64,000 nt of DNA from Roseospira goensis (GTDB lineage: Bacteria > Pseudomonadota > Alphaproteobacteria > Rhodospirillales > Rhodospirillaceae): NCBI RefSeq assembly GCF_014197795.1, contig NZ_JACIGI010000002.1, forward strand, positions 168,222-232,221, given 5' to 3'. The notes under the pieces were generated by a model. It was not told the origin of the DNA. It searched no databases and worked only from the letters and a program-made list of their open reading frames with translations. The translations under genes and the position numbers were made by a program. Of this stretch, positions 3,113-47,314 are shown piece after piece; the first letter of the stretch is position 1, and every line of letters starts with the position of its first letter.

Positions 3113-4445
3113 GGCCGCCCGCCTGACCCCCGGCATGGCTCAGGGCCTCCGGCGGCGTCGCGCGGACCGGCGCCAGAGGGTCGAGCCATGGCGCCAGCGC
3201 CTCCAGCACCCGCGTCAGCACGTCGGCCTCGCCGGCGGCGAAGGCGGCGCCGCGCGCCCCCAGGGCGCTCCGGTCGGCCGCGTCGAGCAGCAGGTCGGCC
3301 ACCGCGTCGGCCAGCGCCGCCGCGTCCGAGACGCAGCGCGCGGCGTCGGCGCCGATCATGCGTGCTGCGATCTCGCGGAAGTTCTCCATGCGCGGCCCGA
3401 ACAGCACCGCCGCGCCCAGCCGCGCCGGCTCCAGGGGGTTCTGGCCGCCGCCCTCGCCGAGCAGGCTCTTGCCCATCACCACCACCGGCGCCAGGCGGGC
3501 GAACAGCCCGACCTCGCCCATGGTGTCGGCCAGGTAGACGTCCGTGCCCGGGCCGGGCAGCACCCCGGCCGAGCGTTGCGCCACCGTCACGCCCTCGGCT
3601 TCCAGCGCCGCCCGCACGGCGTCGCCGCGCGGGGCGTGGCGGGGCATCACCAGGGTCAGCAGGCCCGGCACGCGCTCGGCCACCGCGCGGTGCACACGCG
3701 CCGCCAGCGCCTCCTCGCCCGGGTGCGTCGACAGCGCCAGCCAGCACGGCCGCCCCGCCAGCACCGCCCGCAGCCGGGCCAGCTCGTCCGCGTCGGCGGG
3801 CGCCGGCGGGGCGGCGAACTTCAGGTTGCCGACGCAGCGCACCGGCGCTGCGCCGAGGGCGGCCAGGCGGGCGGCGTCGGTCTCGCTCTGCGCCAGGGAC
3901 AGCCGGAACAGGCCTAGCAGGTGGCGCAGCGGGGCGGCGGCGTGGCGGCGCCAGGCCGTGAACGAGCCGTCCGAGACGCGGCCGTTGAGCAGCACCATGG
4001 GCACGCCGCGGCGCGCGGTCTCCACCAGCAGGTTGGGCCAGAACTCGCTTTCGGCCAGCAGCAGCAGATCCGGGCGCCAGTGGTCCAGGAAGCGCCGCAC
4101 GCCCGATACGCGGTCGACCGGCACGAACTGGTGCACCGCGCCGGGCGGCAGCCGCTCGGCCATCAGCGCCGCCGAGGTCACCGTGCCGGTGGTACACAGC
4201 ACCGACAGGCCCGGTCGCTCCGCCGTCATGCGGTCGATCAGCGGCAGCAGCGACAGCGCCTCGCCCACGCTGGCGCCGTGCAGCCACACCAGCGGTCCGT
4301 CCGGGCGCGGCCGGCCGGCATGGCCCAGGCGTTCGCCCAGGCGCGCCGGATCCTCTTTGCCACGCGCCCGCCGGTGCAGCAGCAGCAGGCGGACCACCGG
4401 CGCGGACAGGTCGGTGAGTCCCCGGTACAGGGTGAGCAGCAGCAT
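3099..4445 (-). CDS. waaA: 3-deoxy-D-manno-octulosonic acid (Kdo) transferase
   Basis: Transfers Kdo from CMP-Kdo to lipid IVA. 448 residues, with an N-terminal hydrophobic segment (about 1-25) as membrane anchor, the WLHGASVGE motif with the predicted catalytic Glu62, the ESEFWPNLL and LLNGRVSDGSF motifs, and the C-terminal GEGGGQNPLEPARLGAAVLFGP donor-binding region. All are hallmarks of family GT30. It lies between a GT4 glycosyltransferase and lpxK in one leftward run, consistent with a lipid A-core operon. Whether it adds one or two Kdo residues cannot be told. Confidence 0.97.
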   Translation of the reverse strand: MLLLTLYRGLTDLSAPVVRLLLLHRRARGKEDPARLGERLGHAGRPRPDGPLVWLHGASVGEALSLLPLIDRMTAERPGLSVLCTTGTVTSAALMAERLPPGAVHQFVPVDRVSGVRRFLDHWRPDLLLLAESEFWPNLLVETARRGVPMVLLNGRVSDGSFTAWRRHAAAPLRHLLGLFRLSLAQSETDAARLAALGAAPVRCVGNLKFAAPPAPADADELARLRAVLAGRPCWLALSTHPGEEALAARVHRAVAERVPGLLTLVMPRHAPRGDAVRAALEAEGVTVAQRSAGVLPGPGTDVYLADTMGEVGLFARLAPVVVMGKSLLGEGGGQNPLEPARLGAAVLFGPRMENFREIAARMIGADAARCVSDAAALADAVADLLLDAADRSALGARGAAFAAGEADVLTRVLEALAPWLDPLAPVRATPPEALSHAGGQAGGHAGP

Positions 4446-4511
4446 CCGTCCGCCAGGGCCGTCGGTGGAAAGGGGGGAACCGCGCAGCCTTACGAGGGCT
4501 GGGCGCGCGGG

Positions 4512-5687
4512 TCAAGCACCGCCGGCGGCGCTCGCCAGGGCGTCGGTGTCGAACGGGCAGACGTTGCCGAGGAACTGGTCCACGCTGGCCTCCCAGCCGT
4601 GCCGCAGGGCGAACGCGCGGCAGCGCGCGGCCGGGACCTCCAGCGCGGCCAGGGCGGCGGCGCGCAAGTCGTCGTCCAGCCGGCCCACCGGCGCATCGCC
4701 GATGACGTCCAGCGGGCCGGCCACCGGGAACGCCGCCACCGGCACGCCGCAGGCCAGCGCCTCCAGCAGCACCAGGCCGAAGGTGTCGGTCAGGCTGGGG
4801 AACACGAAGGCGTCGGCCACGGCGTAGTGCAGGGCCAGGTCCTCGCCGCGCTTCTCGCCGACAAACACCACGTCCGGATGGGCCGTGCGCAGTTCCTCCA
4901 GTTGCGGGCCGCCGCCGACCACGATCCGGGTGCCCGGCAGGTCGAGCGACAGGAAGGCCTCGATGTTCTTTTCGATCGCGACCCGGCCGACGTAGACGAA
5001 CCAGGGCCGCGGGCCACTGATGACACCGTCGAGCGCGCCCTTGTCGCGCGGCCGGAACAGGTCGGTGTCGACGCCGCGGCCCCAGCGGCGGATGTTGGTG
5101 AAGCCCCAGCGCGTCAGCTCCGCCTCGATCGACGGGGTCGCCACCATGACGGCCTCGGCGCGGCTGTGGAAATGGCGCAGCAGGGCGTAGCTCCAGTCCA
5201 CCGGCACCCAGAACCGGGCGTGGACATACTCGGGAAAGCGGGTGTGGAAGGCGGTGGTGAAGGGCAGGCCACGATCCAGGCAGAGGCCGCGCGCGGCCCA
5301 GCCCAGCGGACCCTCGGTGGCGATGTGAATCACGCTCGGGTGCCACTCGGTCAGCGCCTTGGTGAGGCGGTGGCGCGGCGCCAGCGCCAGCCGGATCTGC
5401 GGATAAGTCGGGCAGGGCACGGTGTCGAACTGGTCCGGGGTCACCATGCGCACGGCGTGACCGCGCCGCTCCAGGTGCTCGCGCAGGGTGTCCAGGGTGC
5501 GCACCACGCCGTTGACCTGGGGGAACCACGCGTCGCTGACGATCATGATCCGGTGCCGGGAGTCGTCCGCCGCAGAGCCGGCCGTCGACTTGGGGGCCGA
5601 CCGCGCCGGCCCGGCGCCCGGGTCGGGGGACGCGGCCTCGACGGGGGTGAGGGCGCGGGGGTCGGGCGTGATGTCGGGGCTGGTCAT
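4512..5687 (-). CDS. GT4-family glycosyltransferase
   Basis: 391 residues, two-domain GT-B fold. The N-terminal acceptor domain starts at RIMIVSDAWFPQVNGVVRTL and contains HIATEGPLGWAARG. The C-terminal donor domain has YVGRVAIEKNIEAFL and the EX7E-like FPSLTDTFGLVLLEALACGVPVAAFPV. Residues 1-45 are low-complexity. Start ATG at 5687 has no clear ribosome-binding site, so a later start near residue 47 is possible. In related bacteria a gene of this type often follows the LpxH-like phosphoesterase found here 80 bases upstream, which suggests glycolipid or LPS-core synthesis. The sugar and acceptor are not identifiable. Confidence 0.85.
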   Translation of the reverse strand: MTSPDITPDPRALTPVEAASPDPGAGPARSAPKSTAGSAADDSRHRIMIVSDAWFPQVNGVVRTLDTLREHLERRGHAVRMVTPDQFDTVPCPTYPQIRLALAPRHRLTKALTEWHPSVIHIATEGPLGWAARGLCLDRGLPFTTAFHTRFPEYVHARFWVPVDWSYALLRHFHSRAEAVMVATPSIEAELTRWGFTNIRRWGRGVDTDLFRPRDKGALDGVISGPRPWFVYVGRVAIEKNIEAFLSLDLPGTRIVVGGGPQLEELRTAHPDVVFVGEKRGEDLALHYAVADAFVFPSLTDTFGLVLLEALACGVPVAAFPVAGPLDVIGDAPVGRLDDDLRAAALAALEVPAARCRAFALRHGWEASVDQFLGNVCPFDTDALASAAGGA

Positions 5688-33109: not shown

Positions 33110-34656
33110 GGGAACACCCCCCGCACGGTCCAGCCGCTCCCGGGCTCGCGGGCCAGCCACAGGCGATGGCCGTCGCTGTCCTCGATGCGCCAGAGGTCGC
33201 GGACGCACGTCGGCGGGGGTGGCGCGGCGTCGTGCCACCATTCCGGGGCGATCCGCTCCGGCCCTTCGGCGCGGGCCACGCACCAGGTGTGGCGGCGCCA
33301 GCGGAAGCGGGCGGGCGGGGTGCCGTCGGCCAGCACCTCGACCGGTTCCGGGGCCAGCAGGCGCGGCGGGCGCGGCGCCGTCGCTGGCCAGATGGCGGGC
33401 GCGCCGGCCGGGGTCCGCTCGGCGATGGTGACGGCGGTCTCGGGCCAGTGGCTGGGGCGGGGCGCGGGGCGGACCACCCGGTCCGGCCCCAGGCGGGCGC
33501 GCAGGCGGTCGAGCAGCGGCGCGAGCCGTGCCTCGCCCGCGGCCGTGTCGTCTCCGGCGCCGGCCCCGGAGACGAGGGCCGGCTGTTCGCTCCCGAACGG
33601 CTCGACGGCGGTCAGCGTCAGCGCCATGGCCTCGATCCCGAACCCGACGTCGAGGCCGTCCAGGGTCTCGCGGAACAGCCGGGTCAGGGCCGCCGGATCG
33701 CGGACCGGCCGGCTGGTTCCGAACATGCGGTGCAGCCGCGTGCCGTCGACGCGCATCAGCTCCAGCAGCAGGCGGCGGGCGCCCTTGCCGGCGCGTTCGA
33801 GGCGCGGCCGGAGCGCGCGACACAGGGCCTCGGCGGCGCCCAGGATGTCCTCGCTGCGTCCGATCGGTTCGGGAAAGGCCAGGGTCTCGCGCCAGGGCAC
33901 CACCGGCGGGCGGGGCGTGAAGGGCTCCGGTTCCCGCCCCAGGGCCTGGTCCAGGCGCTGGGTCACCGCCGGCCCCAGGCGCGCGGTCAGCGGCGCCCGG
34001 GGCAGGGTGGCGAGATCGCCGATGCGGCGCAGGCCGAGCCGCCGCAGGGTCTCCACGGTCTCGGGCGGCAGCCGCAGGGCCTCCACCGGCAGGCCCATCA
34101 GAAGCTGGCGCTGCGCCCCCTCCGGCAGCAGGGCGACCCCGGGCGGATCACCGCCATCGTCGGCCAGGAAGCGGGCGGCCGCCCAGGCGGCGCCCTGGGT
34201 GTCGGCCAGGCCGACGCGCACGGCGCTGAGCCCCAGGGCCAGGACGCGCTGCCGCAGGTCGCGGGCCAGGGCGTCCTCGCCGCCGAACAGATGGGCGCAG
34301 CCGGTGATGTCCAGCCAGAGCCCGGCCTCACCGCCGTCGCCCGGGCCGTCGAGGGCGGTCCAGGGGGTATAGCGCGTGGCCCAGGTGGCCAGCGCGCCGA
34401 GGGCCGCCACGTCGGCGGCGGGTGTGGCCGGCCCGACCCGCAGGGCCGGCCGCACCGCGCGGGCGTCGGTCAGCGGCATGCCCGCGAACACCCCGGCCGC
34501 CTCCGCCGCCCGGTTGACGGCGTGCAGGGTGGCGGCGGCGCCGGTCTCCGCCGTCAGCGCGAAGGGCCGGTCACGCGCGTCGGCGTGCGGGTCGCCGGGC
34601 CGCGTCACCCGGTCGGTCGCGAAGCGCGGCAACCACAGAAAGATCACCCGTCTCAT
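33106..34656 (-). CDS. imuB: ImuB, inactive Y-family polymerase-like mutasome protein
   Basis: 516 residues. Y-family-like fold without the full catalytic acidic set; in characterised systems it links ImuA, DnaE2 and the beta clamp. Visible features: FLWLPRFATDRVTR, LWLDITGCAHLFGGEDALARDL, a helix-hairpin-helix near LRRLGLRRIGDLATLPRAPL, and the C-terminal ImuB domain (RDLWRIEDSDGHRLWLARE). It overlaps imuA by 86 bases and dnaE2 by 4 bases, so the three genes are one unit. Confidence 0.95.
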   Translation of the reverse strand: MRRVIFLWLPRFATDRVTRPGDPHADARDRPFALTAETGAAATLHAVNRAAEAAGVFAGMPLTDARAVRPALRVGPATPAADVAALGALATWATRYTPWTALDGPGDGGEAGLWLDITGCAHLFGGEDALARDLRQRVLALGLSAVRVGLADTQGAAWAAARFLADDGGDPPGVALLPEGAQRQLLMGLPVEALRLPPETVETLRRLGLRRIGDLATLPRAPLTARLGPAVTQRLDQALGREPEPFTPRPPVVPWRETLAFPEPIGRSEDILGAAEALCRALRPRLERAGKGARRLLLELMRVDGTRLHRMFGTSRPVRDPAALTRLFRETLDGLDVGFGIEAMALTLTAVEPFGSEQPALVSGAGAGDDTAAGEARLAPLLDRLRARLGPDRVVRPAPRPSHWPETAVTIAERTPAGAPAIWPATAPRPPRLLAPEPVEVLADGTPPARFRWRRHTWCVARAEGPERIAPEWWHDAAPPPPTCVRDLWRIEDSDGHRLWLAREPGSGWTVRGVFP

Positions 34657-42792: not shown

Positions 42793-43095
42793 TCGGTCCC
42801 CCGCTCCCCTCCCCTTTCTCGGTCCCACGCCGGATACGGCGCCCACGCGGGAGCATGGGCGCGAGAGGGAAGAGGGGCGCCCACGCGGGAGCATGGGCGC
42901 GAGACCCCCTTTCTCGGTCCCACGCTCCGGCGTGGGACCGGCATGCCGCCGACGGCGCCCACGCGGGAGCATGGGCGCGAGACCCCCTTTCTCGGTCCCA
43001 TGCTCCGGCGTGGGACCGTCATGCCGCCGACGGCGCCCACGCGGGAGCGTGGGCGCGAGCGCCCTTTCTCGGTCCCACGCTCCCGCGTGGGACCG
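42793..43095. repeat. Palindromic hairpin array 4 (78-bp units)
   Basis: Three A-B units start at 42876, 42954 and 43032, exactly 78 bases apart. Degraded B and A pieces precede them from 42793. Unit features: hairpin A with GGGAGCATGGGC variants, a GAGACCCCCTTTCTC linker, hairpin B, and a short GCATGCCGCCGAC tail. It lies between two rightward genes, downstream of the GH114-like gene. Nothing else is seen in this 370-base gap. Confidence 0.93.
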
Positions 43096-43137
43096 CATCC
43101 CGGCCACCCATGACGCGCCTTATCAAGAGAGGTCCGC

Positions 43138-44886: not shown

Positions 44887-45327
44887 CTACGACGCCGCGT
44901 CGGGCCAGAACCCGTCGTCCATCATGGCGTCGAACGCATAGGGACAGGCGACCGGAAAGGTGGCCTCGGGCAGGCCGGTTTCGCGCTCGGCTTCGATCAC
45001 CGCCAGCCGCCACGCCCGCACGATGGCCGCGTCGAGGCTGGCCTTGAGGCTCGGGTTGTCCTCCAGGTGGGCAGCCAGACGGAGCCGCTGTTCCCTGATC
45101 GACAGCCGCCAGGAATTGCCGCGACGGGCCGGCTGGTGCTGCCATTTCAGCAGGTGCAGCATCAGGATGACGAGGCGGTTGACCAGCTCGCGCCGTTCCG
45201 TGCGGCCCATGCTGTCGATCTCCTCGGCAATATGGGCGACGTCGGCCTCGTCCAGCCGGCCGGCCCGCAGCAGGGCGGCCTGCTCGGTCGCCCAGGCGTG
45301 GAAATCCAGATCGTACAGCGTGGACAT
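44887..45327 (-). CDS. DUF29 domain protein
   Basis: 146 residues, whole protein is the DUF29 fold: LYDLDFHAWATEQAALLRAGRLDEADVAHIAEEIDSMGRTERRELVNRLVILMLHLLKWQHQP, then helical segments to ATFPVACPYAFDAMMDD. Function is unknown for this family. It lies close to the toxin-antitoxin cassette but outside the 40-bp repeats that flank it, so it does not appear to belong to that insertion. Confidence 0.9.
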   Translation of the reverse strand: MSTLYDLDFHAWATEQAALLRAGRLDEADVAHIAEEIDSMGRTERRELVNRLVILMLHLLKWQHQPARRGNSWRLSIREQRLRLAAHLEDNPSLKASLDAAIVRAWRLAVIEAERETGLPEATFPVACPYAFDAMMDDGFWPDAAS

Positions 45328-45401
45328 GGCGGGGCTCCACCGGAGGCGCGTCGGGATTAGGATCCCGCCCTCGCATCAACCGGTCAAGTCATGGGGTGTC
45401 G

Positions 45402-45441
45402 TCCGCCACCGGCGCCCATAGCACGTCCTCGATGCGGCGCG
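45402..45441. repeat. Left 40-bp direct repeat, copy of the epmA 3' end
   Basis: Identical over 40 bases to 46254-46293, which lies inside the 3' end of epmA. On the minus strand it encodes the same RRIEDVLWAPVA residues and then reads on to its own stop at 45389-45391. Sequences outside the 40 bases are unrelated, so the pair brackets the toxin-antitoxin genes exactly. Confidence 0.95.
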
Positions 45442-45467
45442 ACCCTGTTCGGGACGGCCATACCTCA

Positions 45468-45496
45468 TTGACGCAGTCGCCTGCCCGTCCTACCGT
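45468..45496 (+). promoter_or_regulatory. Possible promoter of the toxin-antitoxin genes
   Basis: TTGACG (45468-45473), 17-base spacer, TACCGT (45491-45496), about 38 bases before the toxin GTG. The -10 is weak. It lies inside the repeat-bounded cassette, so the cassette would carry its own promoter. The antitoxin may repress it, as is usual in this family. Confidence 0.4.
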
Positions 45497-45534
45497 TATC
45501 CAGCGTAGACCGAGAGCGTCGGGAGGGGCGGACC

Positions 45535-45896
45535 GTGGGGCTGTCGAAAGACCGTGCCGTCACGATCCTCGAGTTCCAAACCTTCCGAAAGGACGCCGAC
45601 ACCCTGTTCAGCGTCGAGGAGCTGGATCATCTGAGGGTGACGCTGGCCTGCGCGCCGCGGATCGGGGACCTAATCCCGGGGACAGGCGGGGTCCGGAAAC
45701 TGCGGTGGGGTCTCGCCCGTCGCGGTCAGGGCAAGCGGGGCGGCGCCCGCGTGATCTACTATTTCCATAACGAGGCCATGCCCTTGGCGTTGATCGCGGT
45801 GTACGCCAAGGGGAGAAGGCGACCCTGACCGCCTCCGAGAAGGCCGAACTGCGTGGCTTGGTCAAAGCCTATGTTTCGGCCTATGGCATGGACTGA
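45535..45896 (+). pseudogene. RelE/HigB-type toxin with a one-base frameshift
   Basis: Starts GTG at 45535 after GGGAGGGG. The encoded core is a RelE/ParE-fold toxin (DLIPGTGGVRKLRWGLARRGQGKRGGARVIYYFHNEAMPLALIAVYAKG). In the present frame it stops at 45828 after 97 residues. One extra G in the run at 45810-45813 would restore the family's C-terminal helices (GEKATLTASEKAELRGLVK) to the stop at 45894-45896. So the gene is a frameshifted copy, a sequencing artefact, or a truncated toxin. The antitoxin gene lies 40 bases on. Toxin inactivation is common in such modules. Confidence 0.75.
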
Positions 45897-45936
45897 CCGG
45901 GCGGGCCGCGCTCGGCACGGATGGAGGCGTCGCGAC

Positions 45937-46230
45937 ATGTCTGCTTCGAAGATCATCGAAGGCATGCGGGAAGCGGTTGCCTACGCGCAAGGCCGGCCGG
46001 TGCCCGTGCGCGAGACCGTCGTCGCCGTGCCGGCCGAGGTGGATGTCAAGGCGCTGCGGGAGCGTATGGGGTTGACCCAGCAGGCGTTCGCGCGGTGTTT
46101 CGGCTTCTCGGTGGGGTCGGTCCGCAACTGGGAGCAGGGCGCGCGCCGGCCGGAAGGACCCGCCCGCGTGCTGCTGAAGGTGATCGAGAAACGCCCCGAG
46201 GCGGTGCTGGAGGCGCTGCGGGACGGGTGA
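45937..46230 (+). CDS. HigA-type antitoxin with Xre helix-turn-helix
   Basis: 97 residues. HTH is at about 40-75 (VKALRERMGLTQQAFARCFGFSVGSVRNWEQGARRPEGPARVLLKVI), the usual layout of antitoxins encoded after a RelE/HigB toxin. Start ATG at 45937 follows GGAGG. It should neutralise the upstream toxin and autoregulate the pair; both genes lie between perfect 40-bp repeats. It is intact while the toxin is frameshifted. Confidence 0.88.
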   Translation: MSASKIIEGMREAVAYAQGRPVPVRETVVAVPAEVDVKALRERMGLTQQAFARCFGFSVGSVRNWEQGARRPEGPARVLLKVIEKRPEAVLEALRDG

Positions 46231-46243
46231 TCCGGTCGCTCGC

Positions 46244-47314
46244 CTACCGTCCCTCCGCCACCGGCGCCCATAGCACGTCCTCGATGCGGCGCGCCCCGGC
46301 GCACAGCATGACCAGCCGGTCGAGGCCCAGGGCGATGCCGGCGCAGTCGGGCAGGCCGGCTTCCAGCGCCGACAGGAAGTCCGTGTCGATGGGGTAGCGT
46401 TCCCCGTACAGCGCCTGCTTGAGATCCATGTCGGCCTCGAAGCGGGCGCGCTGTTCGGCCGCGTCGGTCAGTTCTCCGAACGCGTTGGCCAGTTCCAGGC
46501 CGCAGACATAGACCTCGAAGCGTTCGGCCAGCCGGGGGTCCGCCGCCTTGGGTCGTGACAGCGCCGCCATGCAGACGGGATAGTCATAGAGGAGACACGG
46601 CGCGCCGAAGCCCAGGCGCGGCTCGACATGCTCCAGGAAAATGCGGAAGAAGACGTCGTCGAAGCGGTCGTCGTCGCCCACGGTCAGGCCCAGCCGCCGG
46701 GCCGCCGCCGCCAGCGGTGCCGGGTCGGGGTCGCGCGCGGGCTCCGGTGGCAGACAGGCCATCAGGTCCACACCGGCGTATTCGGCCATCGCCTCGGCCA
46801 CCGACAGGCGCCGCCACGGCCGCGTCGCGTCCGCCTCGCTCTCCCGCCAGCGCAGCGCCTTGGCACCGGCGGCCCGCTGGCAGGCGGCGACGTAGGCTTC
46901 CGTTTCGTCCATGAGATCGGTATACGTCGCGCCCGCCCGGTACCACTCCAGCAGGGTGAACTCCGGGTGATGGGTGGCGGAGCGCTCACCGTCGCGATAC
47001 ACCCGCGCCATCTGGAAGACCCGGGCCAGCCCGCCGGCCAGCAGCTTCTTCATGGCGAACTCGGGCGAGGTGTGCAGGTACAACGGCACCTGCGGCCGGC
47101 CGTCCGGCGGGGTCCAGGCGGTGGCGAAGGCCTTCAGGTGCGGCTCCAGACCGGGCGAGATCTGGAGTGCCGGGGTTTCCACCTCCAGGTAGCCGTGGGC
47201 CGAGAAGAAGGCCCGCGTGGCCGCCAGCACGCGGGTCCGCACGGCCAGCATGGGGCGGCGCTCGGCCACCGCGTCGGGGTGCCACCAGGGCCGGGCGGGG
47301 CGCGGGTCTGCCAT
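46244..47314 (-). CDS. epmA: Elongation factor P--(R)-beta-lysine ligase
   Basis: 356 residues, truncated class II lysyl-tRNA synthetase catalytic domain without the anticodon-binding domain. Motifs: FFSAHGYLEVETPALQ, LYLHTSPEFAMKKLLAGG, ARVYRDGERSATHHPEFTLLEWYRAG, FEVYVCGLELANAFGELTD, GIALGLDRLVMLCAG. It activates beta-lysine and attaches it to EF-P. Divergent from efp across about 100 bases. Its 3' end is duplicated at 45402-45441. EpmB is not in the window. Confidence 0.95.
   Translation of the reverse strand: MADPRPARPWWHPDAVAERRPMLAVRTRVLAATRAFFSAHGYLEVETPALQISPGLEPHLKAFATAWTPPDGRPQVPLYLHTSPEFAMKKLLAGGLARVFQMARVYRDGERSATHHPEFTLLEWYRAGATYTDLMDETEAYVAACQRAAGAKALRWRESEADATRPWRRLSVAEAMAEYAGVDLMACLPPEPARDPDPAPLAAAARRLGLTVGDDDRFDDVFFRIFLEHVEPRLGFGAPCLLYDYPVCMAALSRPKAADPRLAERFEVYVCGLELANAFGELTDAAEQRARFEADMDLKQALYGERYPIDTDFLSALEAGLPDCAGIALGLDRLVMLCAGARRIEDVLWAPVAEGR
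46254..46293. repeat. Right 40-bp direct repeat, within the 3' end of epmA
   Basis: Identical to 45402-45441 and lies in the last codons of epmA, leaving that gene's frame intact to its stop at 46244. Together the pair resembles an attachment-site duplication at a gene 3' end, although no integrase gene is present. Confidence 0.95.

Follow-up and report, generated by a model that had tools for sequence, protein, structure and literature searches.

In Roseospira goensis, a type II toxin-antitoxin (TA) operon lies between two identical copies of the 3′ end of epmA, and some related operons in other bacteria are flanked in the same way by the ends of other genes. On balance, we favour the view that a bare TA operon inserted into the 3′ end of epmA with a 40-bp target duplication; addiction would have favoured its retention. 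Because some related pairs elsewhere sit between copies of other genes' tails, the arrangement suggests that such TA pairs are able to move as units of just two genes that bring no mobility enzyme with them.

Within the window (the whole 64-kb stretch of R. goensis DNA that was analysed), the two copies (Table 1) are identical in 40 of 40 bases, with a copy spacing of 852 bp. The longer block, 45402–45445 against 46254–46297, matches at 43 of 44 bases. This is the sole direct-repeat pair in the window with a score of at least 24 and a separation of 300–2500 bp, which bears out the perfect 40-bp repeats described in a first-pass annotation of this DNA. In the 4.18-Mb assembly, a search for a 36-base core of the repeat that allowed three mismatches matched these two positions alone, each perfectly, and the reversed-pattern control gave 0 matches. 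When degenerate copies of the epmA end were sought, down to window position 34001, the known second copy alone stood well above shuffled sequence (42 and 60 vs. maxima of 17 and 15; scores of 14–17 were disregarded); a 30-base core was absent from the viral contigs searched. As also described earlier, the epmA frame stays open through the distal copy up to a separate stop. Read from the DNA, this tail ends in VADDTP-stop, and epmA itself in VAEGR-stop. The two genes in the 812-bp insert are both oriented against epmA. Elsewhere in the window (42850–43110), GC-rich repetitive DNA with inverted repeats lies immediately before a glycosyltransferase gene.

Table 1. Features of the epmA region (window coordinates), sequences duplicated around HigBA2-like TA loci, and repeat-flanked pairs of other families (TA-oriented coordinates).
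Feature	Locus	Position	Strand	Basis or remark
Distal copy of epmA 3′ end	window	45402..45441 (43/44 to 45445)	-	direct comparison
Proximal copy, within epmA	window	46254..46293	-	44-bp block, 53 to 10 nt before last base of stop codon
Remainder of displaced, probably original epmA tail (..VADDTP-stop)	window	45389..45401	-	DNA read; VAD-starting tails in G003 and G004 of six congeners
Inserted piece between copies, 812 bp	window	45442..46253	.	read from DNA
HigB2-like toxin ORF, 97 aa, altered C-terminal end	window	45535..45828	+	phmmer
Stretch matching C-terminal end of relatives' toxins in other frame	window	45807..45887	+	5/9 relatives' toxins
HigA2-like HTH antitoxin, 97 aa, open frame	window	45937..46230	+	profile search and phmmer
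epmA (EF-P lysine aminoacylase), target gene, 3′ end duplicated	window	46244..47314	-	TIGR00462 equivalog above cut-off
DUF29 gene beyond distal copy (neighbour; membership in unit not implied)	window	44887..45327	-	Pfam
dnaJ	L198/L200			above curated cut-off
radC	L215			above curated cut-off
topA-like gene	L277			below curated cut-off
rpsD	L287			above curated cut-off
292-aa gene, unnamed	L284			no NCBIfam match
340-aa gene	L212			weak methyltransferase match
2-hydroxyacid-dehydrogenase-like gene	L188			below curated cut-off
GcvT-like gene	L218			below curated cut-off
Small HTH-like gene in prophage-like contig of R. goensis	L125			both by eye
cobQ	L209			above curated cut-off; repeat begins 4 bp past stop
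tRNA-like 3′ sequences	L262, L272			assignment uncertain
Intergenic repeat	L134
DUF4160/DUF2442 pair	L224	4239-4985		repeat is 3′ end of neighbouring gene
HigB/HigA pair	L229	4288-5033		repeat 25 bp past Bax1-I gene stop
HigB/HigA pair	L203	5773-6561		repeat is 3′ part of higA itself
DUF6036/HTH pair	L134	426-2036		between direct repeats

By sequence comparison, the insert genes are a HigB2/HigA2-like type II TA operon with the toxin gene first. The toxin ORF matched chains named HigB-2 in phmmer (E = 6.7e-16 to 1.8e-15; best over residues 11–93), with no Pfam or NCBIfam match at 0.001 and none in PADLOC. The antitoxin matched Atu1735 (8e-12) and HigA-2 (2.2e-7), MqsA chains are also related to it, and its relatives are present in 841 plasmid and 14 phage records. 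The gene order, toxin and then HTH antitoxin, is the one expected of HigBA2-type type II TA. Used as queries, the toxins of nine relatives behaved in two ways: five split over two frames (about 45541–45813 and 45807–45887, the second part at E ≤ 0.001), and the remaining four aligned to the first part alone. Relative to these toxins, the toxin frame at epmA is apparently interrupted near its 3′ end, and because the frame is broken, the addictive hold of this copy is probably gone. Thus, of the possible promoter, toxin and HigA-type antitoxin that the first-pass annotation placed between the copies, the two TA genes stand, the toxin with an interrupted frame, but the promoter does not: a sigma-70 consensus scan found 0 promoters (shuffles, mean 0.1).

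The epmA gene is present in six other genomes of the genus (80–86% protein identity), its 3′ end is single in all six, and in none of them does a cassette lie in the 500 bp downstream. DNA matches to the cassette in these congeners sit on other contigs, with none at all in G004. Where the first-pass annotation had called for a search for empty sites, the congeners thus show one copy and no cassette, but each of the seven genomes of the genus (G000–G006) has different DNA beyond the epmA stop, so that an exact empty epmA site is not readable from the congeners. For the same reason, the epmA end may be a general breakpoint in the genus. The VAD-starting tails in G003 and G004 favour the distal copy as the source of the old gene end; thus, its tail is probably the original epmA tail.

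The repeat-flanked arrangement recurs beyond epmA in the HigBA2-like TA family. Loci of the family were gathered in two sets, and 5 of 148 were dropped for short flanks, leaving 143. In the first set, which was exploratory and includes the window, a direct repeat across the TA with a score of at least 20 was found at 8 of 79 loci, vs. 29 of 2350 control intervals. The second set, collected later, gave 4 of 69 vs. 4 of 338 controls, with large or tRNA-like repeats at two of the four (L262 and L272). A seed test over both sets (500-bp flanks, N ignored) found repeats at 11 of 143 loci vs. 20 of 2118 control intervals (Fisher, 1.3e-6; 7.1e-6 without the window), p values that are indicative only, since the control intervals overlap; at least one control hit was seen at 10 of 138 loci. 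In Smith-Waterman comparisons of the left with the right flank, 13 of 143 loci lay above the 99.9% quantile of mismatched pairs, with 0.14 expected, and seven of the 13 exceeded 29, the largest of 3538 null scores. The union of the tests, plus L218 from the first-set test, comprises 15 loci but 14 events, because L198 and L200 are orthologous. About nine-tenths of the family's loci show no flanking repeat, which counts against the insertion reading. These counts rest on thresholds and flank lengths chosen in the course of the analysis and on genomes that are mostly single species representatives, many in hundreds of contigs, in which assembly error at individual repeats is possible.

Across the order, 57 of 318 genomes matched the epmA 3′-end pattern, and two copies were found only in R. 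goensis and in G205, a member of another family. In G205 (L092, 1490–1640), two epmA 3′ ends lie 102 bp from each other and enclose no TA. The epmA end can therefore be duplicated alone, as it would have been if the TA lay at an unrelated short duplication, or a chance repeat, by coincidence. Such a coincidence is highly improbable, however, given the excess of repeats around TA loci in both the seed test and the Smith-Waterman comparison and given that only 2 of the 57 pattern-matching genomes are two-copied. Two copies without a TA in many strains, an outcome that the first-pass annotation had regarded as damaging, were thus not seen; G205 is the sole case. Nor did its other damaging outcome turn up, a cassette kept in place in distant species with no repeats around it.

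Ten of the 14 events have a repeat that overlaps a protein gene's 3′ end, a different gene each time (repeats and gene ends were matched by eye; Table 1). Across the 11 events measured, the repeats are 23–59 bp long with copy spacings of 680–1277 bp. The TA occurs in either orientation relative to the target gene. As a rough null, 11–17% of permissive window positions overlap a gene 3′ end, with genes called by codon GC alone and intergenic space overestimated. The probability of at least 10 of 14 events at 3′ ends is 1e-5 at 17%, 0.006 at 35% and 0.09 at 50%; over this range, a preference of TA insertion for gene 3′ ends is likely, not proven. At L125 (contig C58 of R. goensis, 3358–4819), a second TA of the family lies between 43/45-base copies of the small gene's 3′ end. 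At L287 (1881–3330, TA-oriented; G099), two TA units of the family stand side by side between a radC-like gene and rpsD, both of them among the target genes found here.

The duplicated sequence varies from site to site, and no terminal motif common to the sites was apparent by eye. Together with the lack of a dif or attC signature, this gives no support to the site-specific integration, with an attachment site and a circular junction, that the first-pass annotation had implied. For the same reason, we consider it very unlikely that a resident recombinase (XerCD, integron or phage integrase) moved a site-specific cassette in trans at the repeat. TA modules moved by XerCD are known from Acinetobacter plasmids, according to the portions of that literature available, but here each site has its own host sequence as the repeat, none of 11 repeats contains a XerD core, none of 11 beats its own shuffles against E. 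coli dif, and a motif search of 45402–46293 found no attC core, GTTRRRY or RYYYAAC. A transposon or MITE was also disfavoured, with no common termini by eye and duplications varying over 23–59 bp.

The moving unit extends little beyond the operon. Among 72 pairs of TA loci listed, 32 are at least 80% identical, and 15 of those lack flagged flank homology. In 12 of the 15, pairs that are not independent and involve ten loci, the common DNA begins within −39..+22 of the toxin start and ends within −43..+47 of the antitoxin stop. The exceptions are L294/L295 and L291/L294, with about 200 bp more upstream in common, and L276/L277, for which the toxin start is estimated only and homology stops 10–11 bp from two topA repeats. 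The L276/L277 TA is found at topA in one species and elsewhere in its sister, beside a terminase-like gene (by eye). In both species, the toxin gene is apparently interrupted by the same palindromic, MITE-like sequence of about 100 bp (by eye). As to the same cassette at other sites, which the first-pass annotation had proposed to look for, cassettes 80–96% identical to one another occur at unrelated loci and have little in common beyond the operon. The L125 TA matches TAs elsewhere in G002 and G003 at 95–96% identity, compared with 77–84% for the epmA region across the genus. Retroposition of the operon was dropped by eye, with promoter-like boxes inside the unit shared at L212. In G021, a CRISPR-like array (L122, 16145–17203; repeats of about 28 bases, 61-bp spacing) lies about 7 kb from a close TA relative.

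These limits bear on whether the epmA cassette is a mobile TA unit of minimal size or what remains of a larger island, between which the first-pass annotation did not choose. Homology confined nearly to the operon, duplications of other genes' 3′ ends and TA-free sites in relatives all favour the former. The alternative is that a prophage, ICE or IME carrying an integrase entered the 3′ end of epmA and that everything but the TA was then deleted, leaving attL and attR. Gene 3′ ends and tRNA-like 3′ sequences are typical integrase targets, both kinds occur here (the latter at L262 and L272), and the related TA at L125 is in a contig of R. goensis that looks prophage-like by eye. But no integrase or transposase is present in the inserted piece or among the Pfam matches of the 25 window proteins scanned, as the first-pass annotation had remarked for integrases, and at many sites both copies are close to the TA (the 11 spacings above), which random deletion would rarely give. 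We therefore regard an island relic as unlikely.

Relatives with and without the TA were compared at several sites. In the radC genus (six genomes), G241 has the TA and the duplicate; G240 has remnants of the antitoxin region but lacks the duplicate; the 3′ end is single in G238, G239 and G079, with no TA within the approximately 1.5 kb examined; and G237 gave no match. On the Sinorhizobium plasmid pSymB, Ak57 has 794 bp with the TA, beginning 5 bp after an annotated stop; in the same place, C101 (about 95% identity; two examined of three such relatives found) has 18 bp. The Ak57 insertion has no direct repeat of 20 bases, which, like the G240 remnant without a duplicate, counts against insertion with target duplication. 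Further sister pairs are L188/L189 and L198/L200. G315, G316 and G317 share the TA at one gene, but the perfect 50-bp duplicate is found solely in G317. In G316, what adjoins that same edge of the cassette is a HigA-like gene's 3′ end. Because the TA is shared and the duplicate is not, the duplicate can be younger than the TA. These three genomes provide the strongest result against a simple one-step view.

Both the younger duplicate in G317 and the constant edge joined to different DNA in G316 would be accounted for by homology-facilitated illegitimate recombination, in which incoming DNA recombines through homology at its epmA side and is joined illegitimately at the opposite one, the 40 bp representing the donor and recipient copies of one gene end. 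This origin requires, however, a donor in which the TA already stood at that gene. It leaves the first arrival unexplained, and likewise the topA case, in which the sister has the same TA elsewhere. We consider it quite unlikely as the explanation for epmA.

The pattern is not confined to one TA family. A PhdYeFM TA in G060 (L348, 2124–2902) has a copy of a comM-like gene's 3′ end on each side (gene named by eye), with 20 identical bases 753 bp apart. As a control family, PhdYeFM gave 1 of 66 loci at score 22 and 2 of 66 at score 21, with three configurations tried each and 66 of 70 loci testable (4 dropped). The excess of the HigBA2-like family (13 of 143) over this control is modest (Fisher, p = 0.032 against 1/66 and 0.094 against 2/66). 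Pairs of other families also lie between direct repeats of 43–79 bp (L224, L229, L203 and L134; Table 1), in 4 of 10 background loci examined among the matches listed, a lead and not a count. The L203 repeat may be the scar of a tandem copy. We advance, tentatively and at somewhat less than even confidence, the broader reading that type II TA operons of several families are themselves mobile units without their own recombinase, which prefer gene 3′ ends and leave target duplications of about 25–80 bp.

The anatomy at epmA, its recurrence at other genes, the tight boundaries of the unit and the TA-free sites in relatives are directly shown. For the insertion of a bare operon at epmA, which remains our preferred reading, we infer the following course of events, akin to the insertion with long target duplication described for restriction-modification units. 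A HigB2/HigA2-like operon without a recombinase would have entered the last codons of epmA, possibly as a DNA fragment caught at a break or stalled fork, with the copied target stretch on both sides. Duplication of 40 bp of target would have kept the epmA frame, so that the gene would now end in a few insert-supplied codons, with its old tail 852 bp away. Recombination between the repeats should readily delete such inserts. An active TA pair would penalise cells that lose the insert, and TA operons would be the inserts that persist because their loss is punished. Gene 3′ ends would tolerate, and perhaps favour, such duplication.

The spread of solitary chromosomal TA pairs has long been a puzzle, as their distribution is patchy and often no vehicle is obvious. 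Insertion leaves a physical footprint in the form of a target duplication, which delimits the moving unit (hardly more than the operon) and lets the event be dated. Through rates of loss between the repeats, it also opens to test both how insertion occurs and whether addiction preserves DNA on chromosomes. Since the repeats ease loss, survival of TA inserts would record addiction acting on chromosomes. If true, TA pairs would join the rule proposed for restriction-modification genes.

TA systems have been treated as horizontally moving or as located in islands (PMC2654758, PMC5906591, PMC8265657, PMC2781298), and the available portions of these four sources describe no target-duplication footprint for them. 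Our literature search, which left most subscription papers outside its reach, returned no description of a TA system inserting in this way, with a long duplication of its target. Among known systems, higBA2 is alike in that HigB-2 and HigA-2 are phmmer sequence relatives and the toxin gene precedes the antitoxin gene. The well-known higBA2 locus of Vibrio cholerae is an integron cassette, whereas the epmA cassette has no attC motif. The dif (pdif) modules of Acinetobacter plasmids, as far as the sources available go, are also recombinase-less, some with TA genes, with short repeats around them. They differ in having fixed Xer sites, in place of which the TA loci here have host gene ends that differ per site. 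To our knowledge, no flanking target duplication has been reported for ccdO157-type islets. They are alike in that a TA pair alone forms a genomic islet, in the portion of the report available (PMC2654758). Integrative elements that occupy gene 3′ ends, together with their CIME relics, share the gene-3′-end repeat on both sides and the target gene kept in frame, but here there is no integrase, and nearly every site within one TA family has a different target gene. Nobusato 2000 and Furuta 2010 are said to be the primary papers on insertion of restriction-modification units with long target duplication. In the portions available, such duplications are long and variable, on the order of 100 bp (PMC3874152), and insertion of this kind is described also in PMC3031569, PMC4978471 and PMC1643837. 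As these sources present them, restriction-modification units resemble the TA operons described here in being small, addictive and recombinase-less, with the target directly duplicated on both sides; in contrast, the unit here is a type II TA pair, its duplications are shorter (11 events), and it lies at gene 3′ ends in 10 of 14 events.
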